Source of the DNA: Craterostigma plantagineum
Taxonomy: Eukaryota > Streptophyta > Magnoliopsida > Lamiales > Linderniaceae
Length of the DNA: 64,000 nucleotides
Reading direction: 5' to 3'
NCBI GenBank assembly: GCA_027422505.1
Contig: JAPQWV010000018.1
Location: 11,426,001-11,490,000, forward strand
In this document: piece by piece, positions 819 to 57,713 of the stretch
How positions within the stretch are numbered: position 1 is the first letter of the stretch
Layout of the letters: each line of letters starts with the position of its first letter
Position numbers and translations under genes: made by a program
Notes under the pieces: model-generated
What the model was told of the DNA's origin: nothing
Seen by the model: only the letters and a program-made list of their open reading frames with translations
The model's database searches: none

Positions 819-2033
819 ATGGATGCTCAAGCAAGGACAATCGCGAAATTAGAAGCACAATATGCTAATAATTACGCATTGTTAGAGATAAAATTGACGG
901 AGCTAGCTGTAGCTAATGACGCTTTGGCTTCCGCTAAAGGAACATTAGTATCCTTCAAGTCAATTTTGACTAGCTTGGAATCTAAGGTAGCAATGAGTGA
1001 AAAGAGAGTCTGCGATCTAACTAAAAGCTTAGATATTTGCAAAGGTGAGCGAGATTGCCTCTCTTTGCAATATCAAATGCTCTTAGAGGAACGCAATACA
1101 TCTTCAAACTTAGATTCGAACGGGGAAAATAATTTACATTCTGAAAAACCTATTCCATGTGATATCCCGGAGACTCTTCGTAAATTGAAAGATTTGCAAG
1201 AAACTCTGGAATTCGAAAGAATAAGTTTTGGCGCGGAAAAGAAAAAGCTTTTAGAGAAGATTTCTAATCTCGAAAATTCGTTTGAGTCTGAAAAGGAAAT
1301 ATTTTTAAATGAGATTTCAAATCTTAAAAATTCCCCGTCTTTACCTGTCTCCAATGATCTTTTAAAAGATACATCTTCCTCGAAACAGGTAAAGAAAAGA
1401 AAGTCAAGCATCTTTGTTCCAAAAATTAAAACTGCTTTTTCTACAAATTCTGAGTCACCTTTGACTGATACTGATATGTTTAGTAAAAGCAAAGCGCTTA
1501 AATTTTCAAAGGAACAATTAAAAGAAAAAATAAAGAGAGAAAAATCGACTTTCTTTTTGAAAAACTTGAACAAAAATTTTAATGATTGCCCCTCTTCGAC
1601 TCCTATTAAAAGGAGAGCATGCGAAGAAGTTCAAAGCTCAAGCAAGCGAACTTCTCAAACTACACCCCTTCATCATTATAGAGTGAATGATGTGAACTCT
1701 TGTAGGCAATACAACTCATCATCCAATGACGCATATAGCGCCATAAGCTCATATTCCTACTTGAAATACCCAGTCCAGATTTATTCTAGAAAGCATCTTA
1801 TGCGACTGGCTAGGGAGAAAATCTTTAGGTCTTCTACACCTAGGCACACACTCACCTGCGCTGAATTGTCATTTCCCTCTAAGGTTCACCAAACTTGGAT
1901 TCCTAAATCACAAATCAAATTGGATAGGACTTTAAAGGATGATTTAGGATCAATAGCTGAACCAAATGTGCTTAACTTGTTTTCTGCTAACAAGGGAGGA
2001 CCCATCCAAAAATGGGTACCAAAGTCCCAATAA
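819..2033 (+). CDS. Sirevirus-type Gag C-terminal coiled-coil ORF (element A)
   Basis: An open frame of 404 codons. I place the start at the ATG in AAAATGGA (819) because the matching ORF in element K starts in the same context; upstream in-frame codons give only a TTG. Residues about 5-190 are rich in Lys, Glu, Leu and Ser with coiled-coil character. A basic Ser/Thr-rich middle follows, and the tail carries YSYLKYPV, KHLMRL and a final WVPKSQ. This tail is typical of the end of Gag in plant sireviruses, just before protease. The N-terminal Gag core and CCHC zinc knuckle, both present in element B, are absent. Similar sequence recurs at 37957-39318, 43741-44450, 56341-57646 and, inverted, 4712-6062. 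It is probably a structural or RNA-binding protein of a non-autonomous element; function is inferred from position. Confidence 0.75.
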   Translation: MDAQARTIAKLEAQYANNYALLEIKLTELAVANDALASAKGTLVSFKSILTSLESKVAMSEKRVCDLTKSLDICKGERDCLSLQYQMLLEERNTSSNLDSNGENNLHSEKPIPCDIPETLRKLKDLQETLEFERISFGAEKKKLLEKISNLENSFESEKEIFLNEISNLKNSPSLPVSNDLLKDTSSSKQVKKRKSSIFVPKIKTAFSTNSESPLTDTDMFSKSKALKFSKEQLKEKIKREKSTFFLKNLNKNFNDCPSSTPIKRRACEEVQSSSKRTSQTTPLHHYRVNDVNSCRQYNSSSNDAYSAISSYSYLKYPVQIYSRKHLMRLAREKIFRSSTPRHTLTCAELSFPSKVHQTWIPKSQIKLDRTLKDDLGSIAEPNVLNLFSANKGGPIQKWVPKSQ

Positions 2034-2313
2034 AGTTTTTGCAGATTCCCAGCATGAGTAGGTACTAAGAAAGCTGCTCCACACTCATGACTGGTATGCG
2101 ACGAGGGCAGCTAATTTTATCCCAGCATGTATGGTACCCGGGTTGCTCCACATACATGACTGGTACACGACGTGAGCAACCACCCCCCGGAATGAATGGT
2201 ACAAGGGTTGCTCCACATTCATGACCGGTATGCACTGCGAGCAACCAACCCCATCATGCACGTTACACGGATTGCTCCACGTGCATGAAGGGATGTCAGA
2301 GAAGCGAGCAATC
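2031..2313 (+). promoter_or_regulatory. Gag stop, TTTTGCAG and four tandem pseudoknot units (A1-A4)
   Basis: After the Gag stop (TAA 2031-2033) comes TTTTGCAG (2037-2044), then four related units of about 65 bp. Each has stem 1 (S1) and stem 2 (S2) interleaved. A1: CATGAGT 2053 with ACTCATG 2083; AGCTGC 2072 with GCAGCT 2107. A2: CATGTATG 2126 with CATACATG 2151; GGTTGCTC 2141 with GAGCAACC 2174. A3: ATGAATG 2192 with CATTCAT 2216; GGTTGCTC 2206 with GAGCAACC 2239. A4: CATGCACG 2255 with CGTGCATG 2280; GATTGCTC 2270 with GAGCAATC 2306. The stems differ between units but pairing is kept. The units derive from the sequence encoding the protease active site, no longer in frame. Confidence 0.8.
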
Positions 2314-2603
2314 ATCATGACTTCTGTACAATCAGTGGGCGCGCCATCCAATCTCGATGCTTAGGCGATGTGGATCTCATGTACCAGACTCCACCGTCCA
2401 CCCACTGCCATCCATTCCACCATGGTGCGCTACATGGAGACGTCCTAAGCCACCGTGATCCTCTTTACGCCCTCACCACCACTTCCACCAGACGAGTCTC
2501 AGAAGTGTCTGATCAACAGTTTTGGGCCACCCTCGTCGACATCACTCGTGGTCGCCTTTCAACGCGATCACGCCACGCCACCATAGTTCCCATGGATCAG
2601 TGA
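2314..2603 (+). pseudogene. Remnant of the sirevirus 3' extra ORF, N-terminal part (element A)
   Basis: Pol is missing: sequence passes from the repeated protease region straight to a frame at 2370-2603 containing QQFWATLVD. This matches the YLQQFWGCI region of the long 3' ORF of element Q (51428 onward). The rest of the fragment is divergent. I regard it as a decayed piece of that ORF; the start is not defined. Confidence 0.45.
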
Positions 2604-3497
2604 AACCCCCCTGATCCTAACCCAGGAACGAGCCTACCCTAGCCTCTCTAGTCTAGGTCTAGGTCGCGCGACATCCTCCTCCACGCAAAGATCCAATCAA
2701 CGATCTCGGGAGGATGAAGTAAGTCGCTTGCAGGAGTTGCGAACCAACGACGACATGATCGCACTCCTCTGTCATATCTCACCATAACCCGGACCTCGCC
2801 CTTAGGTACAGGAGACGACTCGTTCGTTTCCCGAGTAGAAGTCGCGGCATCTGGTCCAACCGCGCAATTAACCCCTCCCAACCACTCAGCTATCCTTTCA
2901 CAGATAGCTGTTTCATTCGCACAAGAGGAACCACGTTAGCCATCACCGCCCCACTTGGAGACGGTTGATGTTGAACATGCAGTGCCCCGCCTCTCACTGC
3001 ACCTCTTCCACCCACATAGAGTCTAGTGTCCTCACCCACCGAAATTTTCAACTTTCTAGGACACAAACACTCTTTACGCACCGCAGGTTCTTTGTGAACT
3101 TGCCCGAACGCTTGATGACGTCCTTGTGACCGAGAGCGGAAGACCCACGACAGCCACCCTCAGCACAACTGTCGATGGGCCACGGATACGAGCTTGTCTC
3201 ATCGTCCGTGCGAACGGAAAGCCTTTGTGGCTCTCCGGTTCTTTTTGTCCTGTGCAAACAGGCGGCACATCGGACACATGTTTCGATGTTGTGACGACGG
3301 AGCGTCTTTGTGACCCCCGTCTGGTTAGTTACACCGTTCGTGATGGAGCCCCGACTCATAGCAATCAGCGAGGAACTTACACATTCCATGCCGCGCTCAA
3401 CGAGGATCTATGAAGGAAAAGGTCCCATCACCGACACCACTCCACCACGCCTACGCCTACGCCACCACATGCTGCTCCGTCTCTCCAGTGTTCAAAA
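2604..3497 (+). other. Conserved non-coding remnant of element A 3' region
   Basis: No convincing coding frame. Blocks match 40540-40900 of element K, including GGAACCACGT followed by ATCACCGC and the region around TGTCCTCAC, so it is shared inheritance between A and K. A hairpin AGCTATC/GATAGCT occurs at 2887-2908; the K counterpart near 40643 keeps only CTATC/GATAG. The block at 3210-3245 (GCCTTTGTGGCTC) matches K at 41024. Confidence 0.5.
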
Positions 3498-4222: not shown

Positions 4223-4233
4223 AAGGGGGAGAT
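4223..4233 (+). promoter_or_regulatory. Polypurine tract of element A
   Basis: AAGGGGGAGAT lies directly before the TG of the 3' LTR, the expected site of plus-strand primer formation. The same motif precedes the K 3' LTR at 41859-41868. Confidence 0.8.
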
Positions 4234-4557: not shown

Positions 4558-4711
4558 CACCCGTTCCTAGCATGGATGCAGATTGACCGTTTCCGAAGTA
4601 GACCTTCCCGAGGAATCCTTCAGAGAAGTTGCTCAACAGCTCTTTGTTTCCAGTCATGTGTGAGGAGCAACCTGAATCTAAGTACCACATATGACGGACC
4701 TGCAAAAAGAA
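4558..4711 (-). pseudogene. Sirevirus protease, N-terminal part (element B)
   Basis: On the minus strand the frame reads HMWYLDSGCSSHMTGNKELL followed by a FLGKVYFGNG segment. The DSG triad is that of copia-type aspartic protease, and the CSSHMTG extension is typical of plant copia Pol. The frame is cut at 4557 by the LTR of element A; what follows is LTR sequence. A Gag stop (TGA) and TTTTTGCAG (4700-4708) lie immediately upstream. The protease matures Gag-Pol inside virus-like particles, but this copy lacks its C-terminal part. Confidence 0.8.
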
Positions 4712-4714
4712 TCA
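4628..4714 (-). promoter_or_regulatory. Gag stop, TTTTTGCAG and pseudoknot unit (element B)
   Basis: Read on the minus strand: TGA (4714-4712), TTTTTGCAG (4708-4700), then S1 CATATGTG (4693-4686) with CACACATG (4662-4655), one A.C mismatch in eight. S2 GGTTGCTC (4672-4665) pairs over seven bases with GAGCAAC (4634-4628). The two stems interleave as in an H-type pseudoknot. The element overlaps the codons for His-Met-Trp, Gly-Cys-Ser and Ser-His-Met around the protease active site. Confidence 0.7.
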
Positions 4715-5123
4715 AGTAACTTTTGGCACCCATTTATAGATGGGTCCTCTTTTGATAGCAGGTGTAGTAGATTTCTTGTTCGTTGCTAGATTTAATTCTT
4801 TGCTAGGTTGTTGTGTAGCTGGTTTGAGAGTCCAAGCGTGATGATTTCCTATAGGATGCAGTTGAGATTTCGGAATCCAAATCTGTTTTGGACTTAATTT
4901 CTTGCTTGGCTTGGTCTTGTAGATGTTGTGTTTCTTTACTTTAGATTTAGTAGTATGATTGGACGGCGTGGGAGATGTGTTCTTAGAACGAGCGCTATGC
5001 GATTTGGAAACGCTATTGCTGAATTGACTGTCATGAGGATGGGAAAGTACATCATTGTTGACATGACAGAACTTTGATTTTAGGGAATGAAATAACGAAA
5101 CACGTTCTGCGACTTACAAGAAG
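4712..5123 (-). pseudogene. Gag C-terminal tail of element B
   Basis: Minus-strand translation gives a basic Ser/Lys-rich tail with PKQIWIPKSQLHP and a final GPIYKWVPKVT before a TGA. This matches the ends of the Gag ORFs in elements A and P. It joins the coiled-coil part upstream after a frame break near 5124. Confidence 0.6.
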
Positions 5124-6062
5124 TCACTTTTGGAAATGCAAAAGATTTTGAAACATGAGAAGAAATTTGGAGACTGGTCTCTTCTTCTTATCAGGGATTG
5201 TTGTCTTCTTAGCTGAGCCAGGTTGAACCTTCTTCGCTTCCTTAGATCTCACGCCTTTGTCTGTGAGCACATGCGATACCAAGTTAGTGTGAGATAAAGG
5301 TATTTTCTTTGTAGTTTGCTTGCATTTACATGTAAATGATTCTGGAATAGGACGGGAGGTGGAAGGTTTGTAAGCATCAGGAATGTTTTCAAGAGTATAA
5401 ATTTTGCTCAACAAAATAGTTCTCTCTTCTTCGTGAGCTTTCTTTTCCGACTCTAGAGAGGCTGTCAAGGAACCTATTTTGCGTATAATTTCTGGAATAT
5501 ATATGAATGAATAAATAGATTTAGTCTGTTCGTCAGTGCCTTCGGGTCCAAATTGTGACATGAAATCATCAGGGAGCGTTATCTCTCTTGTTTTGTAGCT
5601 ATTATTGAGTTCGTCGTAGTTACACATGATTTGAGCCCATTCTTTGTTCTTCCGCCTTTGTTCATCAGATTCAGTCACCTCACTTGATCCGACGAAGGGC
5701 ATTAGTCGTTCGATGCTTAACCCAAAACGTTTGATGTTGTACAGAGAGTCTACTTTATCTGCTTCAGGGTTAGTGGTGGGCTCAAATCCCAATCCTTCGC
5801 GGGGATTATAAAATTCAACATCTTTAGGTTGGCTAAGAAACATGGTTCGTTCACTTTGACCTCTTTTGGTGTTGATGTCCTCTAATTCCTTGATTTTCTT
5901 GTATAGTCGTACACGTTCGTTGGTGATTAGTTCGTATTGAGACGCTACACTTACACATTCTTCCTCGCTGTCTTTCAATCTTCTACTCATATTGCTAATT
6001 TCTATTTCCTTGTTTTCTATATGATCTTCTAAAGTCTTCACTTTAGTTTCAGACAAGATCAA
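5124..6062 (-). pseudogene. Gag coiled-coil region of element B
   Basis: A 312-codon stretch that continues the Gag of element B. Residues 1-70 are coiled-coil (repeated Glu/Lys/Leu heptads). A conserved block SQPKDVEFYNPREGLGFEP follows, and a second coiled-coil lies near 205-235. The block recurs in element P (about 56345-56420). This central-to-C-terminal part is what elements A, K and L keep as their only ORF. It is separated from the zinc-knuckle part by a stop near 6065-6079. Confidence 0.65.
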
Positions 6063-6079
6063 GGATTCATTAAGAATGG

Positions 6080-6922
6080 TTATTTCTTCTGTTGTTTGTT
6101 TAACAGGGCATAATTTTTGTCGAAATTGCTTTGGAGTTCTGAGTGATTTTTACGATGCATGGAGAGTTCGGCTATCCTACGTTCTAGTTTAACGAAATCA
6201 TGTAGGGATGGAGTGTATACCTCCAGGTTGGATGATGAAACATCTATCCTGTCTGATCCGATGGCTGGCTCATCCTCGTCGGAGTCATCTTCTATGCTTT
6301 TCACCATGAAGGCCATTTCTTCTTCCTCCTCGTCAGATGTGTCCTCCAGCCATTCCTCTTCCTCAGCTACCAAGACTATTCCCGCTTCCTTGCGCTGTGA
6401 GAGCTGAAATTTTTTCTTGTAGTATTCAGTGTTTTTCTTCTTGGGTCTGAAGCATTCCGAAGCAAAGTGACCCGGCTTGCCACAGTTGAAGCACTTCTTC
6501 ACTATTTCAGATTTCTTAGTTTCAGTCTCTTCAGGGGCAATGTACTTCTGTTTCCCGCCCGAGGTTCGTTGTTTGTTGAAGGAAGAAGATGATTTCTTGG
6601 CGCTCATCTTATTGACGGTATCTGAAATCATTGCCAGCTTCTTTCTGATGGATTCGAGTTCGTCCTCTGATTCTTGGTCAGATTCGGTGTTGTCAGAGGT
6701 GTCAGATGGTACGACCTGCTTTCCTTTAGAAGTCTTCGAGCTCCTGTTGCTTGACTTAGAAGTTACGAGTGCAATTGGTTCCATTTCAACGTTTGGCTTT
6801 CCTTCGTTCTTAATTTCTTTGGCATATTGCGAGTATTGTGAGAGATTATCGTGTAGGGAATGAATATCCATCGCATCCAGATCTTTGTTCTGTTGCTTAA
6901 CCAGAACTGCAATTCGTCCCAC
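6080..6922 (-). pseudogene. Gag zinc-knuckle region of element B
   Basis: Residues about 142-155 are CFNCGKPGHFASEC, a CX2CX4HX4C retroviral-type zinc knuckle that binds RNA in Gag. A Ser/Asp/Glu-rich segment precedes it, and an acidic run (EEEEEW...SDEEEEEMAF) follows. The order (core, acidic linker, knuckle, acidic stretch, coiled-coil) matches gag block R at 54365-55901. It overlaps the preceding frame by about 160 bp, so Gag is broken by frameshift. Expected role: genome packaging in cytoplasmic particles. Confidence 0.75.
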
Positions 6923-7426
6923 TCAGGTTGAAGTGTGGAGAGGAACTTGATGTTGTGTTCGAGATTGGAGCCCTGGATGTTAATCTTTCTCATCTCGTTG
7001 ATGATGGTTAAGAAGCGAAGGTAAGCATCTCGAAGTTCTTCCCCCTCCTTAGCCTTGAAGGAGTCATAGGCAGTAAGGATACTGGATTTCTTGGACAAAG
7101 TACTAACTTCTGTTCCGACCATCATCTTGCAGACTTCGTCCCAAATTTCCTTTGCAGTGACCATTGCATCTACTTGCTTGTAGACATCATTTGGTGGAGC
7201 CTGAAGTAGATAGTGTCGAGCAAGCTTGTCCGCTCTGGCTCGTGCTTTCTCAGCATCGTTGTATCGACTAGGATCCTTAGGAGTTCTCCTTTCTGGAAAG
7301 CATGTCATTTGCGAGGTCTCCATCCTTGATTTCTATGAAATTTATGAATCGTTGCTTCCATATGCCGTACTCTCCTCATCTCAGTAGTGGTGCACGGTTG
7401 TCAGATCCAATAGCAAGACCGTCCAT
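6763..7426 (-). pseudogene. Gag N-terminal core (UBN2-type) of element B
   Basis: The likely Gag start is the ATG at 7426-7424 (MDGLAIGSDN...), by alignment with MSTTNDISTVGSD in block R. An in-frame stop and a frameshift separate it from the main stretch at 7323-6763. That stretch has the copia Gag core features TAKEIWDEVCKMMVGTE, LRDAYLRFLTIINEMR and FLSTLQPEWDE. These build the capsid-like shell. Two frame breaks make this copy non-functional. Confidence 0.75.
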
Positions 7427-8578: not shown

Positions 8579-8580
8579 CT

Positions 8581-10637: not shown

Positions 10638-10641
10638 ATAG

Positions 10642-11848: not shown

Positions 11849-11859
11849 GGCTTTCCAGG

Positions 11860-17259: not shown

Positions 17260-19131
17260 TGATAAATGAAATCTATATCGTATTTTATACCCCGTAAAAG
17301 CGTAATATGGGTTGTTATTTATATGAATTTCCCTCGAATATCATACATATACGTTTCCGGGAATATTAGGGCTTGAATTAATTTGAAGAACCGTCGAACC
17401 AAATATCGGCCCAAAAACAATTGGGCCGAAGAGTAAAATTCAGCCCATCAGTTCCAGCACACAAAAAAGTCCAAGCCCACACAAAGATATAGTAGATAGA
17501 CAATACACACATGCTCACACACGTACAAATGAAGAATGGAGACCCACCCGCAGACACACACACACACAAGGTGAAGAAAAAAAGAAGAAGCTCACGGCTC
17601 AAGGAACAAATACAATCTCACGTCGTTATTGGAGCAGCCAAACAAGATTTTGTCTCCCCTCCATCATCTATAAATAAAGCGACAAAGACGAGCACAGGGG
17701 GGAGGTGGAGACGAGGCCATATAGACGTAAGCCACGTTACTCACAAGGAAGTAACTCAAGGGGGCCTTGCGTGAATTGGAGCGAGCAAGGTAGTGGTCTG
17801 CATGAACTGGAGCAAGCGAGGAAGCCGTGTGTAGGAGAGAGGTGAGAGGGCAGCCGTGTGTAGGAGTGCAGCAAGCGATTAGTGCAAAAGAAGGGCAAGG
17901 AAAGGTTGAAGCTGATCGCCCACCTCCTGTTCGACGAAATCCGTCAACGAAGGATTAACCCCGAAGGCGAAATTCAGGGAAGTAATTGTTTTTCTCTTTG
18001 TTATTTACGCTTCTCGTCGTGTTAATGCTTCATATGAGTAGCTAAATCCCGCAGTATTTGAGATTAGATGAACCCTAGCGAGTTCGTACGCGTTTTTAAA
18101 GTATTGTTGTGTTGCTATTATTACGACTTGGTTATGAATTATGATATTGTTTTGATTATATCTATGTGATTAAGATAATATTTGGGAAATCGCAAGCTAC
18201 GCTCTAGATTGGGTCTAACGATTAGACCACTCGTAAACGAGCGGAATAAACTCATCGCTAGAGATAGGTTGAATTACCCTGCCAGATTAGAGTCAAATCT
18301 AGTAGTGCGATTCATCGTGTTTTAATGCGATCTGTGGTTGACTAGTTAGGGAACCTTGCCCAGCTATTTAAGTCATAGATTAGTTATTTATGATTCTAAT
18401 ATGATAAGACGCAGTTTCGTTAGTCGAATAAATTCGTACGCATACTCTACGAATCCTCACGGTCTAATAGTTAGCTAATGTCGTTTGGTCGAGCTAGGGG
18501 GATTCGAAGTCTCAAATAAGTTCGCTTTCATAAAGTCGTCCAACCCCGTTATCGATCTTTTATCAAATTTTTATTTTTGTGTTAATCGTGTATTTAGTTT
18601 ATCGTTATTTATATTTTTTATCAAATCAAAATATTTACTAGGATATTTAAACGACGGTTTTCTAAGGTATATCGGATGGGATCCTCTGTCCAAACCCATG
18701 TCCCAATGTGCGTACCAAATCACCGGATGTTGACACTTGTCAAATCATGTGGTTTAGAAATTGTTTTAATTATTTTTTAAATGTTTTAGTTACATAATCT
18801 ATCAAGTTATAAAATAATTCTTATTTCATGTCATTTATATGATAAAAACAAATAAACAACACTAATAATTCTTTGTTTCATCAAGATCAAATTGATATCC
18901 ATATCTTATATTTTTCGACATCTATAAAAATTATTTTTTCATATATTCTACAATCTGGTACACACATTGGGACAGGGTTTGGGACAGAGGATCCCATCCG
19001 AAGGTATATAGTTCCTTTGGGTTCGATACTCAAATACTTGCCATTTCTATACTGTTTTCGATAGACTTGCCTGTTGAGAGTAGGATAGTTCGTCGATAAT
19101 CCTTTTATTTATTACTCGATCCGCTCGATCA
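17260..19131 (+). mobile_element. Athila-type LTR (E), plus orientation
   Basis: It runs from TGATAAATGAAATC to CGATCA and is followed by a tRNA-Asp type PBS. It is homologous, inverted, to 21133-22525 and 62961-64000. It carries a MITE (18673-19000). Relative to the F copy it keeps a segment (about 18010-18580) that F has lost. Small frames inside are not supported. It is the presumed promoter-bearing LTR of a Ty3/gypsy Athila/Tat element. Confidence 0.75.
18673..19000. mobile_element. Mutator-like MITE in LTR E
   Basis: 328 bp with long inverted ends (CGGATGGGATCCTCTGTCC/GGACAGAGGATCCCATCCG) and a perfect 9 bp flank duplication AAGGTATAT (18664-18672 and 19001-19009). Nine-base duplications are the hallmark of Mutator-like elements. 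It is absent from the F copy of the same LTR, confirming insertion. Confidence 0.85.
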
Positions 19132-19138
19132 AGTTTTC

Positions 19139-19156
19139 GGCGCCGTTGCTGGGGAA
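19139..19156 (+). promoter_or_regulatory. PBS of element E (tRNA-Asp type)
   Basis: GGCGCCGTTGCTGGGGAA matches the PBS common to Athila/Tat elements, complementary to the tRNA-Asp 3' end, a few bases after the LTR. Confidence 0.8.
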
Positions 19157-19383
19157 CTATTGATATTTGAAAAACTTTAGTTTATTACTCTAGCTCTATT
19201 ATTATTAATTATTATTAGTAATATATGATTATTATTATTATTTACGAGTATTTTTTCCCCTCTTTTATTCTAGGTAAATCGCATGCAAAGTAATCGCCGG
19301 AAATGTATGACGTTACCGAGACAACCGCGTTCCACGCTAAGCTCGACGCCCTACAACAACAAATTACATCGGCCGGCCTTTGA
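19157..19383 (+). other. Leader of element E with ATT-rich repeats
   Basis: AT-rich leader with TTATTATTA runs. The same sequence is found inverted at about 21010-21117 behind the F PBS. Confidence 0.6.
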
Positions 19384-20586
19384 ATGCAGACCTTAACAAA
19401 TTTGTTCTTAACGAATCTTGTATCAAAGCAATCCGTTAACGAGGTACAGTTGCAGGCTCACCCCTTTACCCTTATAGCTGTTGCGCCTCCTTTCACATAC
19501 CCGATGTATGTCCCGCCATGCAATATCTGCATTGGAGGCCACGATGCATCTCAATGTCCATCCACTCTCTCAATTGACTGTGTTGAGTATATGGGGAACT
19601 ACCAAGAGGAGCAAATTTTTCCCCGAGTTCATCCGAACCTGATCTACAGAAATAATCAACAAGCTCCTCTAATATTTCAAAATCAAAGAGCTCAACCATA
19701 CCAAGACGTAATTGCTAAGGATGATCCCAAAACTCGTTTAGATAAGCTCGAAGACATGTATCTGGTGCTGATGGAGAAGCTTGATTCTCGCTTGCATAGT
19801 CAAGAAGTTCGGCTGAAAAATGCCGAATCTTCATCGAGAGCATTAGAGAAGCAAGCTGGAGAACTAGCTGAAACTATCCATCAACGCAAGCTAGGTGCAT
19901 TACCTATCAATACGGAGACAAAACCAAAGGAGTATTGCCATGATGTTACACCAAGGAGTAGGGAGGAGGTTGCCCCAAGATCACCGATCAACGTTTATAA
20001 ACCAAATATTCCATTTCCGGCAGCTCTAACACGGGGAATACCAAAAGATCTATTTGGAAAATATCTTTCCGAGAAGAGCGTCAAGAAAGAAGCTGCGAAG
20101 AAAAACGATAAGATCCATGAGGAGAAAGTAGAAGAGCAAGTGAACAAAGTCGTGGTGAATAGCGTGACGGAAGTAGCTCATGTCAAGGAAGAACCAGTTG
20201 ACAAAGAAAAAGAGATCACGACTAAGCCCCCTGTCAAGTCGAATCAACTGGAGATCCCATACCCAACTATGCTAAACAAGGATATGGTTTTCGATGAGTA
20301 CGGTAAATTTCTATCTTGTCTCAAGCAAATACATATTAACTTACCGCTTGTCAAAGCTCTTGCACAGGTAGCCCAATATGTGAAATACCACAAGGACTTA
20401 CTCCCGAACAAATGCAAGCTCGATGTTGTTTCTAATATTTGTCCTCGAAGGGAAGTGCTAGTAGCAAGTGATAGATTTCCCGTAAGTTTCATTATTTTTT
20501 ATTTGGAAGAGGTTGAGCATTTACCCTTGATCTTTGAGGGATCATTTTTAGCCGCAAACATGGTAGATGTTAAGAATGGTAGTTGA
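19384..20586 (+). CDS. Athila-type Gag C-terminal part and protease-linker ORF
   Basis: A 400-codon frame. Residues about 45-60 hold CNICIGGHDASQCP, a CX2C...HX4C zinc-knuckle-like motif of Athila Gag. A helix with MYLVLMEKLDSRL and LEKQAGELAETIHQR follows, then LGALPINTETKPKEY, typical of this group. Two repeats of Pro-rich plus Lys/Glu-rich sequence come next, and FLSCLKQIHINLPLVKALAQ and YVKYHKDLLPNK lie before the protease. Protease and the rest of pol are absent, so the element is non-autonomous or deleted. The ATG is the first in frame, but the N-terminal Gag core is missing upstream, so the true start may be lost. Confidence 0.7.
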   Translation: MQTLTNLFLTNLVSKQSVNEVQLQAHPFTLIAVAPPFTYPMYVPPCNICIGGHDASQCPSTLSIDCVEYMGNYQEEQIFPRVHPNLIYRNNQQAPLIFQNQRAQPYQDVIAKDDPKTRLDKLEDMYLVLMEKLDSRLHSQEVRLKNAESSSRALEKQAGELAETIHQRKLGALPINTETKPKEYCHDVTPRSREEVAPRSPINVYKPNIPFPAALTRGIPKDLFGKYLSEKSVKKEAAKKNDKIHEEKVEEQVNKVVVNSVTEVAHVKEEPVDKEKEITTKPPVKSNQLEIPYPTMLNKDMVFDEYGKFLSCLKQIHINLPLVKALAQVAQYVKYHKDLLPNKCKLDVVSNICPRREVLVASDRFPVSFIIFYLEEVEHLPLIFEGSFLAANMVDVKNGS

Positions 20587-20940: not shown

Positions 20941-21117
20941 AGCCGTACAAAGCATGCACGTCGGACCATTCAAGGATACTTACCATTTCTTTTACACTTT
21001 AGTATTTCCTCTTCCTTGTATTGCATAATTGTTACGTTAATTAATAATAATAATAATAATAAATACTAATAATACAGCTAGAATAATCAAGTAAAGTTTT
21101 CCAAATGTCAATAGTTT
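20941..21117. other. Junction between convergent halves of the Athila element
   Basis: Left part is plus-oriented 3' sequence. From about 21010 the sequence is the inverted leader (AATAATAAT runs, AAAGTTTTCCAAATG) belonging to the minus-oriented LTR F. The exact switch point is not resolved. Confidence 0.5.
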
Positions 21118-21132
21118 CCGGGCAACGGTGCC
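21118..21132 (-). promoter_or_regulatory. PBS of LTR F (minus orientation)
   Basis: CCGGGCAACGGTGCC is the reverse complement of GGCACCGTTGCCCGG, the tRNA-Asp type PBS seen in E with a few changes. Confidence 0.75.
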
Positions 21133-37956: not shown

Positions 37957-39318
37957 ATGGACACCTACTCAATTACTCGATCTGATGACACTAGCTCTGA
38001 CGACTTTAGCTCCGACATTGATGAACAACTGAAGGAGTTTGGGCGTCAACTACGATTAATTGAGAAGTAGTTAAAGAAGAAGTCCACAAAGACCAAGTCA
38101 CGCTCGAAGAAGCAAGAGAGCACATGCTCCGAACAATCGACGAACTTGGCTTTGATGGCATCCCATGAAGAGGAGACTAACATATCTTCTACAGAGGTAG
38201 TTATTCCTAACTCTACATTGTTTAACGTGTTAGAATCCTTACAAACTAGGTATGCTAACATGAAAAATGAGCAGAAAAGTACAAAAGAGTTAGAAGAAAA
38301 ATTATCTAAGTCTGAGGAGAAAATAGCTAGTCTTGAATTAGAACTTAGAAGCTCTAATGCGAAAATAGATGAACTACGAGCTTGAGAATTAGTGAGATTA
38401 AGACGCCACAGCTTGAGACACATAGCTAAAAAATTAGGGAATTAGAAGTCAGGCTAGAAAATAATTACAATTGTTTGGTTAGGAACCTCGACGAGAAAGC
38501 TAGCCTCAATTGTAGATTAAGAAATGCCAACTCTAAGATCACTAGTCTAGAATCTCAATTAGAAAATTCTAATGCTAAGAGATTAGTGAATTGACCAAGA
38601 GTTTAAACAAAAGAATACGCTTTTATTGGAAATATCTAATCTCAAAACTTCCTCACAAGAAAAGTTAATATTTAAGCAGGTTAAGAAAGAGAGAGAGGCT
38701 TTGAGCACCAATACATCAAATACTCCAATTTCTAAAGCCGTTACTTCTACATGTTCGTTAAAGCCTATCAATTTTAGAAGTACAAACTTTGAAAGTGGCT
38801 CTTCCTCCACCAAGAAAATTTTTCACGAAAGTAATTCAAGTTCTAGCGCACAAACTTCATCGTGTGTTTCAAATGATTCTACTAACTTTTCACTTAAAAA
38901 GCCTAGACTTGAAAATAATTTTCGAAATTCTTATTCTCATGTGTGCACTCTCTACCTAAGAATTACGACACTTCTACTTTACATGCTTATCACTCTATTT
39001 GCTCGTATTCTTACATGAAGTACCCAGTCAATATTCGTTCCGAAAAGCATTTATTACGACTAGGTACTGGGAAGACCTTTACAAGTACACATTCTAGGAG
39101 CACATATTCACATGCTAGAATTGCTTATCCGTGTAAAATCAAGCAAAAATGGATTCCTAAGTCGGATATCAAGTCACAAAGTCCTAGTCAAATATGGACT
39201 CCTAAGACTATATCTTCGACCAACTTAGGCTCAATTTAATTTTACACGATTTATGACTAACTCGTTTTCTGCTAATAAGGGAGCACCCATACGACAATGG
39301 GTACCAAAGTCCCGATAG
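37957..39318 (+). pseudogene. Gag-like coiled-coil ORF of element K, broken
   Basis: The start ATG has the AAAATGGA context of element A. The N-terminus is acidic (MDTYSITRSDDTSSDDFSSD), then coiled-coil (YANMKNEQKSTKELEEKL, LELELRSSNAKIDEL), then a Ser/Lys/Thr-rich part and SYMKYPVNIRSEKHLLRLG, and finally QWVPKSR before TAG (39316-39318). Premature stops at 38068 and 38386 and shifts around 38600, 38940 and 39237 break it. It lacks the zinc knuckle. About 38610-39318 closely matches 43738-44450. Confidence 0.7.
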
Positions 39319-39397
39319 TTTTGCAGATTTCCCTCATGTACGGAATTCGACGTAGTGGCTCCACGTACATGATAAAGGGATGAGGCGTGAGCTACTA
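39316..39397 (+). promoter_or_regulatory. Gag stop, TTTTGCAG and pseudoknot unit (element K)
   Basis: TAG (39316-39318), TTTTGCAG (39319-39326), S1 CATGTACG (39335-39342) with CGTACATG (39364-39371), S2 TAGTGGCTC (39353-39361) with GAGCTACTA (39389-39397), nine pairs including one G.U. The stem sequences differ from those in A and B yet pair. The protease frame is lost here. Confidence 0.75.
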
Positions 39398-40229
39398 CAA
39401 CTAAGTTTCAACGAGGTTTATTTCAAACTTACATATACATACGAGTTTCGTCGAAAAAAAAAATATATACCTATTTTCTTTGAAACTTGTCAAATTTTAC
39501 ATTTTCGATATGCATTTCAGCGCTTTAAATGAGTTTTAAAATTTTCAAATGCATCTTACGAACGAAAACGATAAATATCATTTTTCGATTAATACTTTCA
39601 AATGAGCTTTAATTGAGGGGGAGCTACTCATTATTTTAATGAGGAGCAACCTTTATATTTTTAAGGAAGCACAAATTTTAATTTTTGAGGGGGAGAAAAC
39701 TTACAATCAGCGATTTAAGGAAACGATATTCTTAATATTCGTCAAACTACGCAAATTTCTAGGGGGAGAAAATTTATTTTCGAAGCATTGTTTTTGGGGA
39801 GATATAAATATAATACTACTATATTAATAATGTACATATATATATATACATACATATACATATATCCAAAAAAAGGGGGGGAAATATGAAAAAAGTGAGA
39901 TATGAAAAAAAAGAAGAAAAAAAGGGGAAATATGAAAAAAGTGAGATATAAAAAAGAAAAAGAAAAAAAATGAAATATGAAAAAAAGGAGATAAAAGAAA
40001 AAGAAAAAAAGAGAGGAAAGTACATTATTGCCTCATATGATTTATATGCTTTCTTTTCCAAGATTGTGTAGCTACACAGTTCAGTTTGTGAGCCCAATAT
40101 TTAATTTTTTTCCTCTTCAATTGTTGGTGATGATAGAAAAAAAATAAAAAAAAGATAAAAACAAAAAAAAAAGAAGAAAACAAAAAAAAGATAGACGAAA
40201 AAAATGAGAGAGATAAAATAAACAAATCA
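39398..40229 (+). other. Element K non-coding region with PPT-like and A-rich tracts
   Basis: Pol is missing. Three purine tracts of the PPT type (GAGGGGGAG near 39616 and 39689, AGGGGGAG near 39762), TATA-rich repeats (39834-39860) and long GAAAAAAAG runs (39870-40015, 40134-40210). Opposite-strand hydrophobic frames arise from these runs and are not genes. Confidence 0.55.
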
Positions 40230-43740: not shown

Positions 43741-44450
43741 ATGCTTTTATTGGAAATATCTAATCTCAAAGCTTCCTCACAAGAAAAGTTAATCTTTAAG
43801 CAGGTTAAGAAAGAGAAAGAGGCTTTGAGCACCAATAGATCAAATACTCCAATTTCTAAAGCCGTTACTTCTACATGTTCGTTAAGGCCTATCAATTTTA
43901 GAAGTACAAACTTTGAAAGTGGCTCTTCCTCCACCAAGAAAAATTTTCACGAAAATAATTCAAGTTCTAGCGCACAAACTTCATCGTGTGTTTCAAATGA
44001 TTCTACTAACTTTTCACTTAAAAAGCCTAGACTTGAAAATAATTTTCGAAATTCTTATTCTCATGTGAAAAATGTGCACTCTCTACGTAAGAATTACGAT
44101 ACTTCTACTTTACATGCTTATCACTCTATTTGCTCGTATACTTACATGAAGTACCCAGTCAATATTCGTTCCGAAAAGCATTTATTACGACTAGGTACTG
44201 AGAAGACCTTTACAAGTACACATTCTAGGAGCACATATTCACATGCTAGAATTGCTTATCCGTGTAAAATCAAGCAAAAATGAATTCCTAAGTCGGATAT
44301 AAAGTCACAAAGTCCTAGTCAAATATGGACTCCTAAGACTACATCTTCGACCAACTTAGGCTCACAATATAATTTTACACGATTTACGACTAACTTGTTT
44401 TCTGCTAATAAGGGAGACCCATACGACAATGGGTACCAAAGTCCCGATAG
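43741..44450 (+). pseudogene. Gag-like coiled-coil fragment (K type) downstream of leader L
   Basis: The frame starts inside the Gag and is nearly identical to 38614-39318 of element K. It contains SFSTSTLHAYHSICSY-type text, YMKYPVNIRSEKHLLRLG and IKQK, where a TGA (44281-44283) replaces a Trp codon. After a one-base shift it reaches WVPKS-type sequence and TAG (44448-44450). The N-terminal part is missing, so the leader of L and a K-type gag are joined at about 43738. Confidence 0.7.
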
Positions 44451-44528
44451 TTTGCAGATTTCCCTCATGTACGGAATTCGACTTAGTGGCTCCACGAACA
44501 TGATAAAGGGATGAGGCGTGAGCTACTA
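44448..44528 (+). promoter_or_regulatory. Gag stop, TTTGCAG and pseudoknot unit (element L/K')
   Basis: TAG (44448-44450), TTTGCAG, S1 CATGTACG (44466-44473) with CGAACATG (44495-44502; one mismatch), S2 TAGTGGCTC (44484-44492) with GAGCTACTA (44520-44528). Close relative of the K unit. Confidence 0.65.
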
Positions 44529-44707
44529 CAACTAAGTTTCAACGAGGTATATTTCAAACTTACATATGCATATGAGTTTCGGCGAAAAAAAAATATATAC
44601 CTATTTTCTTTGAAAACTTGTCAAATGATACATTTTCGATATGCATTTCAGCGCTTAAAACGAGTTTAAAATTTTCAAATGCATCTTACGAACGAAAACG
44701 ATAAATA
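44529..44707 (+). other. K-type non-coding sequence after the pseudoknot
   Basis: Matches 39398-39565 of element K; similarity stops at about 44707. Confidence 0.55.
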
Positions 44708-49068: not shown

Positions 49069-49120
<52 letters not shown>

Positions 49121-52954: not shown

Positions 52955-54316
52955 TTGGGTGGAAGTCTCATACAGTCACAACCTCAAGTGACTGTGAGCC
53001 AACGTGAAGAGACGTTGTCTACTCAAGGGTTGATAACAGGCGAAATCAGTCGTCCTGGTCCATCCAAGGAGACGTCCGCACCTTTTGTGATGAACGAGCA
53101 GTTCCAGGCCGCTCTCTCTGCCGCTGTACAGTCCGTGGAAGACAAAATCAGTGAGAGAGTACTCCAAGCAATTGAGACATCCCGAAGAGATACCGAGAAA
53201 GCACATGTCTCTGAAGGCACCTCGTCACAACCGAACCTCACACCTCCACAACCCACACCCACCGACCCTCTACAACACTCTTCCATCCTAATCAACCCAT
53301 ACACTATCCCAATCACCGAGCTCTATGACATCCTTCTGGCCCGCCTCATCGGTCTTACCATACGGTCGCCTCAGGAAGAGTCCCTCTATAGGCGACTGGT
53401 AGACCATCCAAAGCCACCTACCCAATCATGCCGAGGCCAAAGCTCCCACTCCCGGCGCAGACATGACGATCCTGACGATCAGGACCATCATGAGGGGGAG
53501 AAGAGGCCAAGGACATCTACAACTGGCCAAGGACAAGGCTCGGGCGCTACGCAGACAAGCGCTGGAGCTGGTGAAATCCAAACTACCCACCAAACCCAAA
53601 CACAAACCACCCAAATCCAAACTACCCAAACCACGCACCGCACCGCCCACATCGACCCACCAACCTTTCACCTCGGGGCGCCTCCGCCCACACCACTGAT
53701 CTACTCAAGCCCCTTGCTTTCGGAAGAAGAAGCAAGTGCTGCGATGCTTGTAGCTCTAGCAGCTACCCAAGCCACTCCCTTCGCCGCTCCAGACCAACCG
53801 GGACCCTCTGGACATGGCGTCAATCCACACGAGGTCCTAGACAAGTATATTTTCGAAGGACAGTGGATGACCCATTCCATGCCCCAGGAGCATCAAAGAC
53901 GACGGCTTCACGATGTTCGGCGCTTTCTACAACAAGCATCTGTAGACCTCGTGATCATAGAAGACGACGGGCTTCAGGAAGGTGAAGACTACGAGCGAGA
54001 TATCCCAAGGCTACCAAAGTTAATCGCTCAACGGGCGGTTCCCTCTACAAGGCTAATGCCAGGGACTGTTCGGATTGACACGCCATGGGAGAACATCCGA
54101 ATAGAAATCCCCTTCCTAGAAGAAGTTCGTGAGAACATTTGGAGGTCTCCGGACAGAGCTTTGGATGCTGACCAAACTAAGGCACAAGCCAAGAGCCATT
54201 ATAAGAGTCTCTCTCCAATAAGCCAACTACTCAGCGTCTACTGTGACAAAGGAGGACTTCCAACACCTCATTACACCATTGAGCGCGTAGATAGAACTCG
54301 AGAAGATCTACGCTAG
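52955..54316 (+). CDS. 3' extra ORF, C-terminal part (element Q)
   Basis: 453 codons open. The region FQAALSAAVQSVEDKISERVLQ is amphipathic and may be helical. A Pro/Thr-rich stretch, LYDILLARLIGLTIRSPQE, and RRRHDDPDDQDHHEGEKRPR follow; the latter is the block kept in element A. A Gln/Thr-rich repeat (QTQTTQIQTTQ) leads to PPPTPLIYSSPLLSEEEAS. The end has RPEIPFLEEVRENIW-like and SLSPISQLLSVYCDKGG text. The start shown is only the first ATG of this frame; the true N-terminus lies upstream through broken frames. No known enzyme motif is visible. Confidence 0.6.
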   Translation: MGGSLIQSQPQVTVSQREETLSTQGLITGEISRPGPSKETSAPFVMNEQFQAALSAAVQSVEDKISERVLQAIETSRRDTEKAHVSEGTSSQPNLTPPQPTPTDPLQHSSILINPYTIPITELYDILLARLIGLTIRSPQEESLYRRLVDHPKPPTQSCRGQSSHSRRRHDDPDDQDHHEGEKRPRTSTTGQGQGSGATQTSAGAGEIQTTHQTQTQTTQIQTTQTTHRTAHIDPPTFHLGAPPPTPLIYSSPLLSEEEASAAMLVALAATQATPFAAPDQPGPSGHGVNPHEVLDKYIFEGQWMTHSMPQEHQRRRLHDVRRFLQQASVDLVIIEDDGLQEGEDYERDIPRLPKLIAQRAVPSTRLMPGTVRIDTPWENIRIEIPFLEEVRENIWRSPDRALDADQTKAQAKSHYKSLSPISQLLSVYCDKGGLPTPHYTIERVDRTREDLR

Positions 54317-54364
54317 AGCGACCTACCGTACATCCCTGCTGAAGAAGTTTACAACTTATATCAG

Positions 54365-55030
54365 CTATATGTGGAAAAGTACAAAGGTCCTTAAGGCTTC
54401 ATCAAGGGTCTCAAGGGTCTCTACCGGTTCATGATGCGCCAAGTCAAGTACTATGCCGCGCACGACCTTCAGATGGCTCTGGAGAGCAACATGAAGAAGG
54501 TAGCTTAGTTCATCATAGTCCCTAGCGTCTACGGTGGGTTTCTTAATGGTGTGTCGGTGATTAAAAACATCATCGAGTTGTGAGATTCGTACCTCAGACT
54601 CGGCGTTGGTGGGAGTCTTAGCTGTGTTCTCACTACTGTCAACCATCTCCTCGTCCTCGTCCTGTTCGACCAGCCTTGCCATGCAGCAATCTTCATCCTT
54701 AGGCTCCTCGTCTTCTGAAGTGTCGTTCACCCACTTAGCCTCTTCGGTGAGAAGAACTTTCCCACTTTCCATTTTGCGGGTCAATCTGGCCTTACGGTCG
54801 TAGTAGCCAGAGTCCTTGACGCGTGGTGCGTGGCATTCCTTGGCAAAGTGGCCTGACTTTCCACATCGAAAGCACTTCACAGACTTCTGAGGTGCTGATT
54901 CTTCCTCTTTCTTTGTCGGCTTGACTTCCTCCGTGGGGGTGGTCTTTTTGGTGCCGCTATAGGTTCTTTGGCGATTGGAGGAGGGTGAGAATTTTTTCCC
55001 GATCTTCTTTGCGACCAGCTTAGTGAGCAT
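54365..55030 (-). pseudogene. Gag zinc-knuckle region of inverted block R
   Basis: A minus-strand frame with KCFRCGKSGHFAKECHAPR, a CX2CX4HX4C zinc knuckle, then an acidic stretch (TSEDEEPKDEDCC, EQDEDEEMVDSS) and EVRISQLDDVFN. This order matches element B. It ends at 54365 where the Q sequence stops, before the coiled-coil part. Confidence 0.8.
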
Positions 55031-55901
55031 TTCCAGTTGCTTGCGTAGATCACGAACATCTTCATCAGACTCTGTATCAGCTTCGGATCCTGAAGAGGTG
55101 TCAGATACAGTAACTGGTAGCTTCCCTTTGTTCTGTTTGGTCTTAGTGGCGGAAGATCGTTCATTGGTCTTGTTCGAGAGGAGGGCCAGTGGGTCGACTC
55201 GAGTGTTAGTGGACTGGGGTGCACGTAAGGAGCATAGGCTGACAGACTGTCATAGAGAGCATGGATGGAAGTGTTGGAGAGGTCCTTACTCTGAATCATC
55301 ATCACGATTGCATTGCCCCAATGTGGTTTGAAGCTACCAAGGAAGCGGTTGTTGATATCGAATTTGTCCCTCGAGATCCTGGCTTTCTTGAGTTCATTGA
55401 TGACCTTCAAGTATCGGAGGTATGTGTCACGCAGTTCCTCTCCTTCATAGTCCTGAAAGTGTTCATACTGCGAGAGACATGCTGATTTCCTCCCTTGAGC
55501 ACTCTCAGTTGTGCCTGCCATAATTTCCACGAGTTCATCCCATATTTCCTTAGCAGTTGTGCAGCACTCAATGTGAGCGTAGACCTCGTTTCCCATAGCT
55601 TGGAAGAGATATCCTTTGGCAGTCTAATCAGCCTGTACGCGAGCCTGTTCATCCTCATTAATGGGACCTCTTGGAGTGCAGCGTTCATCCATGGGAGGGT
55701 TTGCGTTTGGCTTGCAGGGATGGTAGTCCAGAACTGTGGTGGGCCGTTGAAGATGGAGTCTAGAAGGTATTGAGAGAGTGGTGCGCCTTTGTTCCTGATG
55801 AACGTGAGGAACCGGTTTGTCCATATACTGTAGTCGCCTTGTCGCAGCATCGGAGGCCTGGTGTCGGAGCCCACTGTTGAGATGTCATTCGTGGTAGACA
55901 T
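54877..55901 (-). pseudogene. Gag N-terminal core of inverted block R
   Basis: The start ATG (55901) gives MSTTNDISTVGSD, PPMLRQGDYSIWTNRF and FIRNKG. After a shift near 55600 it continues GNEVYAHIECCTTAKEIWDEL, LRDTYLRYLKVINELKKARI and FLGSFKPHWGNAIVM; a second shift lies near 55200. This is the same Gag core as element B, broken by frameshifts. The capsid-like role is inferred from family. Confidence 0.75.
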
Positions 55902-56340
55902 GGTTGGTGCAGTCGAATCGTCCGTGGTTTTGATCTTGTATAGACAAGAGAGTTAGTAACGAACGAACGAGATGAGAAATATAAGTTTTGAGAAAAAAAA
56001 TTGTTTAAAGAATTTCTTAGAACTAAGTGAGCGTGTGTGATGGTCGATAATGTATGAAGGAAAAATATATCTTTAAATTAGGAGAAGTTCTAGAAACTTT
56101 AAAAACGAGATTTGAGGCGAGAAAAAAAATTTATGTCAAAAGTGGTCTAGGGTGATAAGACTAAAGTGTAAGGATCAAATCTTAAATAAGTTTGAGAAAA
56201 ATTTACCCCGAGAAAATTTTAACACGAGGAAAAATTCGCAGGTAGAGACGTGATTGTATGAAGGATTATCCGAGAAATTTTGTGTTGAGAAATTTCGGTG
56301 TTTGTGAGTTTTAAAGAGAAATTCTCGGAAGAAAAATTCT
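55902..56340 (-). other. Leader of block R
   Basis: Non-coding sequence upstream of the R Gag on the minus strand, with GAGAAATTT-like motifs (56200-56340). It abuts plus-strand gag sequence of P at about 56340. Confidence 0.55.
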
Positions 56341-57646
56341 CAGATGAAGACAAACAGAACAACCATTTTCCTAAATCAGCCCAAGGATATAGAATTCTAT
56401 ATCCCATGGAAGGCTTAGGTTTCACTAACCGTCGTGTTTTAAAGAAGAAAGAAGCTAATGATATAAAATAGATGGGTTTAGGTGTAACCACTCGTATGAA
56501 CTTTACTAAAGCAGACGATCTAGGTGCTTTAGAGTTAGCTAAGAGAAGAGCCACACATAGGGCCCAAATCCCCTTCGACTATAAAGAACATAATGACAGC
56601 AACAAATCTAGGGAAATACCCTTGACGTCAGTCTGTGATTTAGTTCAACCTCCTGAGTCTCAACCTGAAGTCGGGGAAGCCAAAAACATACATTCTAAAA
56701 AGTCTCCTTACAAACCTACTATCGTGAAGCAGATAGATGAATTACAAGCTGCATTAGATAAAGAAAGAGAGAATTTTGAAGCTGAAAAGAAAACATTCCT
56801 AAAAGAGATGGAATATCTCAAAGCTTTCTCCATCGCAAAAGCTATTCTCATGCATCTCCTTCAAGTGAAAATATCATTCTGAAAAGCCTGAAGAAAGAAA
56901 GAGTGCCTTCGAATGATCAAAAATGCAAAAATAATACTTCAAAAATTCTAACTCTAATCATGTTTCGCTTACGTCTACGGAGCGTAGAGCCAGCATTAGA
57001 GTTGAAGGCGGAAGTGTGTAGTCTAAAAATAGAGAAGGAGCCTGTTGATCTGATTGCTTCTAACAATAGATCTCCATCTGTAAAAATAAAAGAAACTCTT
57101 AGAAAAAAAAGAGTTGTTTCCTCTCTCAAAATAATTGTTTCTACTTGCTTCTTAAAGCTTACCACATTTAGAAGCACCAATTTCTAAATAGGCTCCACTT
57201 CAACCATAAAAACTGATTATTCTAAGACAAATGCTCTAGGATGACCCATAGGAAACTAGATCCAGCCATAAAGAAAGCGTATGGCGCTATTCATGCTTGT
57301 TCTCACCTAAGGTATTCCTTTAAGATCGAATGCCCCAAGCACCTTAGGAGACTATCCAACGAAAAGATCTATTCCACGCTCAAGCCTACTAAAGCATTTG
57401 TCCGCGCTGAAATTAATCTTCCCTACAAGGTTCAACCCAAATGGGTTCCTAAATCCCGCCTAAAAAGACCAAAGCTGTAAAGGCCAAGTCTTCTACAAAG
57501 GGCACACCCAAATCAACTTCTATGAAGATGACTTGGGCTGTCAAAGCTTCTACTAACACTAATTTAGGAATCATATCTGAACCAACATCTAAATCTGCTA
57601 ATATGAGAGGACCCATGTATAAGTGGGTACCTAAAGCTCTCTAAAT
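56341..57646 (+). pseudogene. Gag coiled-coil and tail of sirevirus P
   Basis: Plus-strand translation starts within NQPKDIEFY and GLGFTNRR, matching the middle of the Gag of element B. DELQAALDKERENFEAEKKTFLKEMEYLKA (coiled-coil, 56727-56820), a Lys/Ser-rich part, HLRRLSNEKIYSTLKPTK, and VQPKWVPKSRLKRP follow, and finally KWVPKAL before TAA (57644-57646). Frameshifts lie near 56830, 56883, 57190 and 57480. The N-terminal half is absent here but present, inverted, in block R. Confidence 0.7.
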
Positions 57647-57713
57647 TGTTTTTGCAGATCCATCATCTGTGGTACCTCGACTCTGGTTGCACCACACACA
57701 TGACGTGAGCAAC
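57644..57713 (+). promoter_or_regulatory. Gag stop, TTTTTGCAG and pseudoknot unit (element P)
   Basis: TAA (57644-57646), TTTTTGCAG (57650-57658), S1 CATCTGTG (57664-57671) with CACACATG (57695-57702; one mismatch), S2 GTTGC (57686-57690) with GCAAC (57709-57713). It overlaps the WYLDSGC codons. Weakest of the eight units. Confidence 0.55.

Follow-up and report, generated by a model that had tools for sequence, protein, structure and literature searches.

A coding intron and an adjacent H-type pseudoknot at the gag-pol boundary of Sirevirus-like retrotransposons in Craterostigma plantagineum

Introduction

The window analyzed here, a 64-kb stretch of the 1.71-Gb genome of the plant Craterostigma plantagineum (contig JAPQWV010000018.1), contains five loci (A, B, K, L, and P) of Sirevirus-like retrotransposons in which a compact pseudoknot follows the gag stop codon. 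These loci raise the question whether the pseudoknot serves the Gag stop or another need of the element RNA. The five loci were read directly, and related sites were searched for in the whole genome. The pseudoknot probably serves as an RNA tag needed for copying of the element, and not as a switch acting on the Gag stop.

About 21% of the maize nuclear genome consists of sireviruses (PMC3599292), and the expression of Pol past an out-of-frame gag stop is listed as open in a review (PMC5009743). An intron at this place would answer the puzzle for the SIRE lineage, and its traces in DNA can be counted. If the pseudoknot is truly a packaging signal, packaging of plant long terminal repeat (LTR) retrotransposons becomes directly testable, and the signal helps to find their parasites.

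Results and Discussion

The Gag End and Its Stop Are Encoded in an Intron

The elements are Ty1/copia retrotransposons of the SIRE lineage (Sirevirus-like). They encode a copia-type gag with a CCHC knuckle (open reading frames (ORFs) of locus B match PF14223 at 4.2e-13 and PF00098 at 2.6e-07), followed by a long Gag extension with a putative coiled coil, judged by eye. An inverted repeat, presumably the published sirevirus motif, is present at the gag/pol boundary of the sites. The pseudoknot has two neighbors: the hairpin GGACCCAT...ATGGGTACC immediately before the gag stop, and a U-run ending in GCAG, a 3' splice site, between the stop and the pseudoknot.

We found a phase-0 intron, GAG|GTA...GCAG|, of about 1.5-1.8 kb, which encodes the end of Gag with its stop codon; the pseudoknot lies a few nucleotides beyond its 3' splice site. 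A search for P-type exon 2 starts without the U-run revealed copies in which the gag frame runs directly into pol at the AG. GAG|GTA is present at the joining point in the intron-bearing relatives L086, L087, and the 5' part of L006, and at the corresponding site in nine of nine P-type stretches, eight of eight further ones among them. It also occurs in four of five F2-type stretches, in three of three B-type stretches and locus B of the window, and in L104 of the L064 family; the additional F2 copies L019 and L038 read GTAAGT and GTAAGC. No 5'-site match was obtained in the K stretches L105 (which starts inside the intron), L106 (other sequence), and L107 (GC for GT). In 53 of 57 non-B sites, the AG is preceded at 49-67 nt by a CTAAY site, and the gag-end hairpin lies between the two; none of ten B-type sites has this arrangement, the family labels being rough.

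Genome-wide, GAG joined to exon 2 occurs at 121 + 124 places (control 0). Exact junctions were found in 17 of the 20 places read and in all six of a further batch, and the intronless copies read amount to 26, counting L082, L083, and L075. They belong to families related to locus B, not to B itself. A stricter exon 1|exon 2 junction pattern matched 82 + 90 = 172 genome places (reversed control 0), and the unspliced 5'-site counterpart matched 1265 + 1286 = 2551 (control 11 + 8 = 19); roughly 6% of the copies with such exon ends are therefore intronless, an estimate based on patterns of different length. The stretch has GT-AG boundaries, and genomic copies lack exactly this stretch.

Several candidate junctions were rejected. 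Those of L079, L084, and L085/L086 reflect deletions that have one end at or close to the AG and no matching GT at the other, not splicing; L080 and L081 are decayed unspliced copies; and a match (GTGTCA) 2560 nt upstream in locus P was taken as noise. L085 and L086 have one deletion in common.

The exon 1 ends of 19 intronless and ten intron-bearing copies were placed on a tree (L119, with an upstream sequence unlike the others, was excluded). Inner support is low, and the labels require eight changes, compared with a mean of 8.6 when shuffled; the starred branches alone force two changes, and a single origin is seen in 0% of the bootstrap trees. We rejected an old single-ORF lineage as their source, since intronless copies are mixed among intron-bearing ones. 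There is a strong case that they derive from repeated reverse transcription of spliced RNA. Judged from genomic sequence, splicing appears to be recorded in the DNA, and the intron is a firmer result than the function of the pseudoknot.

A protein search gave 627 matches, and among the 120 listed, eight span the exon junction region. The Cuscuta campestris gene models P0076 and P0090 read ...DADQE|VTSQ..., with E|V at the position of the 5' site, and in model P0030 ...DVDQE is joined there to protease (EAAKYPGVWYLDSG). The Ipomoea model P0093 reads EEE|VTSQ, and model P0004 is without E|V. These are gene models, not RNA, and they hint at an older intron.

The Gag Stop Has No Fixed Relation to the Pol Frame

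A pattern combining the gag end with TTTGCAG, blind to the stems, matched 3603 + 3678 places in the whole genome, compared with 3 + 1 for the reversed pattern. The loci fetched, partly chosen for diversity, and the window together gave 67 distinct sites, all of them required to contain TTTGCAG. Pol is free of stops over its first 600 nt in 14 of the 67, and from the gag stop to pol the phase is 0, 1, or 2 in four, six, and four of these sites, respectively, a spread possibly widened by single-base indels of individual copies. There is no fixed frame relation between the gag stop and pol. The constant feature is a U-rich stretch with GCAG at its end, and pol starts in phase 0 after it.

These observations bear on a recoding or stop element, in which the pseudoknot would act at the Gag stop through readthrough, frameshift, bypass, or protection from nonsense-mediated decay. 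The first unit begins 15-19 nt beyond the stop at the window loci, and Gao et al. (2003) weighed bypass or internal entry for sireviruses, according to later accounts (PMC5009743, PMC2829016). Since all three phases are present, one fixed recoding event does not fit all sites; furthermore, the stop lies within the removable intron and pseudoknot units also occur away from the gag end. Readthrough and frameshift were rejected on the varying phases and the intronic stop, and with them the control of stop readthrough that a preliminary description of the window had offered. We consider a role of this kind improbable. The pol frame being fixed only relative to GCAG and the stop being intronic, the tie of the pseudoknot to the Gag stop looks incidental.

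The Pseudoknot Is Maintained by Compensatory Changes

The fold is an H-type pseudoknot with compensatory change. It consists of two interleaved helices of 6-9 bp (stems S1 and S2) with usual loop lengths of 7-15 (L1), 2-5 (L2), and 15-20 nt (L3), and S1 starts 4-9 nt after GCAG in the sites with the usual helices. When the 95 nt following GCAG were searched for interleaved helices without anchors, 61 of the 67 sites scored at least 13, compared with 29 of 1005 dinucleotide shuffles; nothing was found in three sites. The usual pol-bearing form has S1 TCATGTGTG/CACACATGA and S2 TGGTTGCTC/GAGCAACTA. In pol-less families the arms vary and stay paired, both in S1 (CATGAGT/ACTCATG, CATGGGT/ACCCATG, CATGTATG/CATACATG, CATGCACG/CGTGCATG, CATGTACG/CGTACATG) and in S2 (AGCTGCTC/GGGCAGCT, AGTGGCTC/GAGCCACT, GATTGCTC/GAGCAATC).

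The S1 arms were located via CATG-like anchors, and the unit of locus P was left out of the S1 counts. Among 23 distinct arm pairs, 161 of 184 cells are paired, compared with 20-114 of 184-216 when the 3' arm is slid by 1-3 bases either way; no arm shuffle out of 20000 reached 161, the top shuffle having 159. As the CATG half is fixed by the anchors, the information sits in pairs 5-8, which are paired in 22, 18, 20, and 15 of the 23, and at pair 5 A-U, U-A, C-G, and G-C all occur. Own S1 arms form 7.0 of 8 pairs and swapped arms 6.4. For S2 the contrast is small (7.74 of 8 versus 7.33), because the best offset was allowed for both; S2 is supported by paired variants at pairs 1-4, with one A-C cell against it. 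Among codons for the same amino acid in six family representatives, synonymous differences number 19 of 134 in the stems, 55 of 126 in the loops, and 132 of 213 downstream, these being pairwise comparisons that are not independent and include some decayed copies. No Rfam family matched within the window at the gathering threshold.

The preliminary description had listed eight units at five loci with the order S1-S2-S1'-S2', and direct reading bears out their number, positions, and order (Table 1), as well as the overlap with the protease active-site codons in B and P. Its statement that the S1 arms are paired holds in full for units 1, 2, and 4 of locus A and for K; unit 3 of A is without the outer pair, L and B have one mismatch each, and P is decayed. 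The covariation that it proposed extends to the wider set of copies, in S1 by the count of paired cells and in S2 by its paired variants. K and L are about 98% alike across long stretches and therefore represent one family.

The pseudoknot could have no RNA function at all, the stems reflecting coding constraint on the protease active site together with recent duplication, and the intronless copies an old single-ORF lineage. The stems do coincide with conserved codons in pol-bearing families, and K and L are near copies. Against this stand the compensatory changes in pol-less families, where protease coding is gone and the stems differ yet pair, as the preliminary description had it, as well as the fewer synonymous changes in the stems and the mixing of intronless and intron-bearing copies on the tree (for which the low inner support and the two forced changes apply). 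Chance or coding origin alone was rejected on the basis of the shuffles, the S1 pairing, and the scarcity of synonymous changes in the stems, and we regard a pseudoknot without RNA function as very improbable.

Pol-Less Elements Keep and Multiply the Pseudoknot

In locus A the Gag ORF is reduced to its later part, followed by the hairpin, the stop, GCAG, and four pseudoknots. An A-type pattern with the GCAG left free matched 303 + 308 places (control 0). GCAG is kept in 93 and AG in 98 of the 100 places listed, the exact flanks of the pattern favoring well-kept copies. In the K family, copies L107, L166, and L167 have GC in place of GT and keep the 3' site and the pseudoknot. Both the A and the K family are pol-less, and they retain the 3' site and pseudoknot although exon 1 (or the 5' GT in the three K copies) is gone.

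Seven loci contain one to four pseudoknot units and no gag-end hairpin within 700 nt upstream, namely L002 (L003 covers the same stretch), L072, L073, L074, L076, L077, and L078. A further locus picked with these, L075, is an intronless pol copy. Within the same 700 nt, TTTGCAG occurs once in L072 and is absent in the other six. All 19 units scored in these loci reach at least 13, compared with 13 of 380 shuffles; the decayed fourth unit of L072, missed by the unit pattern, is outside the 19. The best-scoring helices of L073 differ from the usual ones. L002, L074, L076, L077, and L078 have upstream sequence resembling the leader of A. With five protein queries at 1e-4, neither gag nor pol was matched in the DNA fetched for L072, L074, L076, L077, and L078, i.e., in five of the seven loci of this hand-picked sample; L073 has a gag-like match on the opposite strand.

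CCAG, which is acceptor-like, precedes several A-type and pseudoknot-only units (2043-2253 in the window; L002, L072, L074) and was unseen in the pol-bearing copies inspected.

Non-coding RNAs of such elements have needs in cis for export, packaging, dimerization, priming, and integration. The pseudoknot occurs in the absence of a gag end and hairpin and mostly also of a splice site, and pol-less elements have multiplied it, which points to a cis element of the RNA.

These loci bear on two further explanations. Firstly, the pseudoknot could modulate splicing at the neighboring 3' site and so the ratio of Gag to Gag-Pol, a kind of control also proposed for segments 7 and 8 of influenza (PMC3369869). 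The short distance of S1 from GCAG and the arrangement of CTAAY site, hairpin, and AG are in line with such control, for which influenza provides a precedent. However, the seven loci have the pseudoknot without the hairpin, six of them also without TTTGCAG, and the pol-less A and K families retain it without a Pol to express. Given the seven loci, packaging or another RNA role fits better than splice control, which we hold to be rather unlikely. The preliminary description had suggested a role in splicing or packaging; splicing is real at the pseudoknot site, and it is the control of splicing by the pseudoknot that fits less well.

Secondly, the pseudoknot could be a nuclear export element for unspliced or intronless RNA, as reported for the musD transport element, which is described with pseudoknot and kissing-loop motifs (PMC12786077). 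Its presence at loci without the hairpin and mostly without a 3' site agrees with export. Four units in locus A have no obvious need for export, however, and spliced copies keep the pseudoknot too, though it is coding there. Export is unlikely in our assessment, if slightly less so than splice control.

A Model with an Alternative Intron and an RNA Tag

In the explanation that we favor, the element RNA would carry an alternatively used intron. Unspliced RNA would yield a long Gag (capsid, zinc knuckle, and coiled-coil end) that stops just before the 3' splice site, and in spliced RNA the end of the knuckle region would be joined in frame to protease, giving Gag-Pol independently of the frame in which gag stops. 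Both protein products and their ratio are presumed. As the first structure of exon 2, the pseudoknot would be carried by spliced and unspliced RNA alike and would act as a cis tag on the element RNA; Gag would most likely bind this tag for packaging or dimerization. Pol-less derivatives relying on the proteins of other elements would have to retain the tag, and some would have multiplied it. Because splicing leaves the tag in place, spliced RNA would occasionally be packaged and copied, leaving intronless copies.

Packaging or dimerization is our best guess for the role of the pseudoknot, preferred because of the analogy with Ty1 and because spliced RNA retains exon 2 and is evidently copied. 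We give the model as a whole, with an alternative intron for Gag and Gag-Pol and the pseudoknot as a cis tag for packaging or dimerization, an even chance. Somewhat below that, and tentatively, we place its most specific form, in which a modular pseudoknot in the protease frame is a Sirevirus-like packaging tag, Gag-Pol arises when the coiled-coil Gag end is spliced out, and pol-less parasites multiplied the tag to compete for particles.

A number of observations weigh against this explanation. The remaining three of the 20 junction places read (types B, F2, and B) are unspliced copies that have GAG in place of CAG, and all the intronless copies read come from several P subfamilies or one divergent family, L123. 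For locus A no 5' splice site was identified. The seven pseudoknot-only loci are a non-random sample, L002 being among the first places found and L072-L074 and L076-L078 being picked for unusual letters, and in L002 a same-strand match resembling pol lies about 1.1 kb downstream. The same facts also suit an export element, since non-coding RNAs need export as well. Finally, under packaging the fixed place of the pseudoknot beside the 3' splice site would be mere ancestry.

Comparison with Known Systems

A hairpin at the gag/pol boundary of sireviruses was described by Gao et al. (2003) as a 27-nt motif with a covariant 11-bp stem, as cited in PMC5009743 and PMC2829016. It comes from the same lineage and place and is very likely the hairpin upstream of the stop here. 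As cited there, it is a simple hairpin upstream of the stop, read as a signal for bypass or internal entry, whereas the pseudoknot lies downstream of the stop, in exon 2. In the elements studied here, the gag-end hairpin has a branch-point-like site on one side and the 3' splice site on the other.

The Ogre elements (Ty3/gypsy) have an intron whose splicing in a subset of transcripts joins gag-side and pol-side ORFs, according to PMC6317226. The likeness lies in the joining of ORFs by splicing; here splicing is recorded in DNA and the joining of Gag to Pol is deduced from it. Ogre belongs to another superfamily and its intron has another position, whereas the present intron is itself coding (the Gag end) and ends between two RNA structures. 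Among Ty1/copia elements, copia, BARE1, and EVD splice near the gag end (PMC3735527, PMC12786077). Splicing favors a Gag-only RNA in these elements as described there, whereas here Gag would come from the unspliced RNA and Gag-Pol from the spliced one. Attempts to amplify DNA copies of spliced BARE RNA from barley failed according to the same sources, in contrast to the 172 genomic junction matches found here.

The 5' pseudoknot of Ty1 helps Gag to recognize its RNA (PMC8396678) and likewise lies within a Ty1/copia-type RNA. As described in that source it is long-range and near the 5' end, whereas the present one is compact, located in exon 2, and tandem in some pol-less elements. In influenza A segments 7 and 8, whose RNA is alternatively spliced, a pseudoknot is likewise located at the 3' splice site (PMC3369869). 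In the form presented there the splice site is inside the structure, whereas here it is a few nucleotides upstream and the pseudoknot also occurs without it.

In the PubMed Central literature on sirevirus and copia splicing we found no report of splicing in SIRE elements, and in that on sirevirus pseudoknots, gag-pol recoding, and packaging no description of the pseudoknot; Gao et al. (2003), Steinbauerova et al. (2008), and Oberlin et al. (2017) may hold either. Searches of other DNA collections for relatives gave 0 and then 2 stretches among viral contigs and 36 stretches among genome contigs; a crude protease pattern then matched L152 alone, apparently by chance.

Features of the Window

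The coordinates of the features at the five loci are given in Table 1. The ORF of locus A had no Pfam match, and its coiled coil was judged by eye. The decay of the pseudoknot in locus P consists of an S1 mismatch, S2 arms GTTGCAC and GAGCAAC, and a third loop that is mostly lost.

Table 1. Features of loci A, B, K, L, and P, with positions counted from the first base of the window.
Feature	Position	Strand	Remarks
Locus A pseudoknot unit 1	2053..2112	+	S1 CATGAGT/ACTCATG, fully paired; S2 AGCTGC/GCAGCT
Locus A pseudoknot unit 2	2126..2181	+	S1 CATGTATG/CATACATG, fully paired; S2 GGTTGCTC/GAGCAACC
Locus A pseudoknot unit 3	2191..2246	+	S1 ATGAATG/CATTCAT, without outer pair only; S2 GGTTGCTC/GAGCAACC
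Locus A pseudoknot unit 4	2254..2313	+	S1 TCATGCACG/CGTGCATGA, fully paired; S2 GATTGCTC/GAGCAATC
Locus A ORF, ATG to TAA	819..2033	+	Matches only the Gag part that the intron encodes in pol-bearing families
Locus A hairpin preceding gag stop	1994..2028	+	
Locus A 3' splice-site-like sequence	2035..2044	+	GTTTTTGCAG; CTAAC site upstream, 1983-1996
Locus B pseudoknot	4626..4694	-	Overlaps protease active-site codons; one S1 mismatch (CATATGTG/CACACATG)
Locus B intron, 1521 nt	4700..6220	-	By homology; GAG|GTATAC ... CTTTTTGCAG|GTC, phase 0 on both sides
Locus B exon 1	6221..7323	-	Copia-type gag (PF14223) and CCHC knuckle (PF00098); frame broken
Locus B hairpin preceding gag stop	4725..4748	-	
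Locus K pseudoknot	39334..39398	+	S1 TCATGTACG/CGTACATGA, fully paired; S2 TAGTGGCTC/GAGCTACTA with one G-U
Locus K candidate intron, 1130 nt	38197..39326	+	GAG|GTAGTT ... TTTTGCAG
Locus K hairpin preceding gag stop	39279..39313	+	
Locus L pseudoknot	44465..44529	+	Near copy of K; one S1 mismatch (CGAACATG)
Locus L 3' splice-site-like sequence	44449..44457	+	AGTTTGCAG
Locus P pseudoknot	57663..57715	+	Decayed
Locus P hairpin preceding gag stop	57605..57641	+	
Locus P 3' splice-site-like sequence	57648..57657	+	GTTTTTGCAG

A second copia-type gag fragment, element E (54365-55596, minus strand), has a CCHC knuckle and GAG|GTACGA after 54593. No 3' splice site or protease was found downstream of it, and it was left out of the intron counts. 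A 453-aa ORF of unassigned identity (52955-54316, plus strand) lies downstream of element E on the opposite strand.

Elsewhere in the window there is an inverted repeat of 274 nt, 86% complementary, with arms at 17729-18002 and 21344-21617, 3.3 kb apart. It encloses an inner inverted-repeat pair (19062-19224 and 21047-21209), and a 400-aa ORF (19384-20586) is located between the arms.

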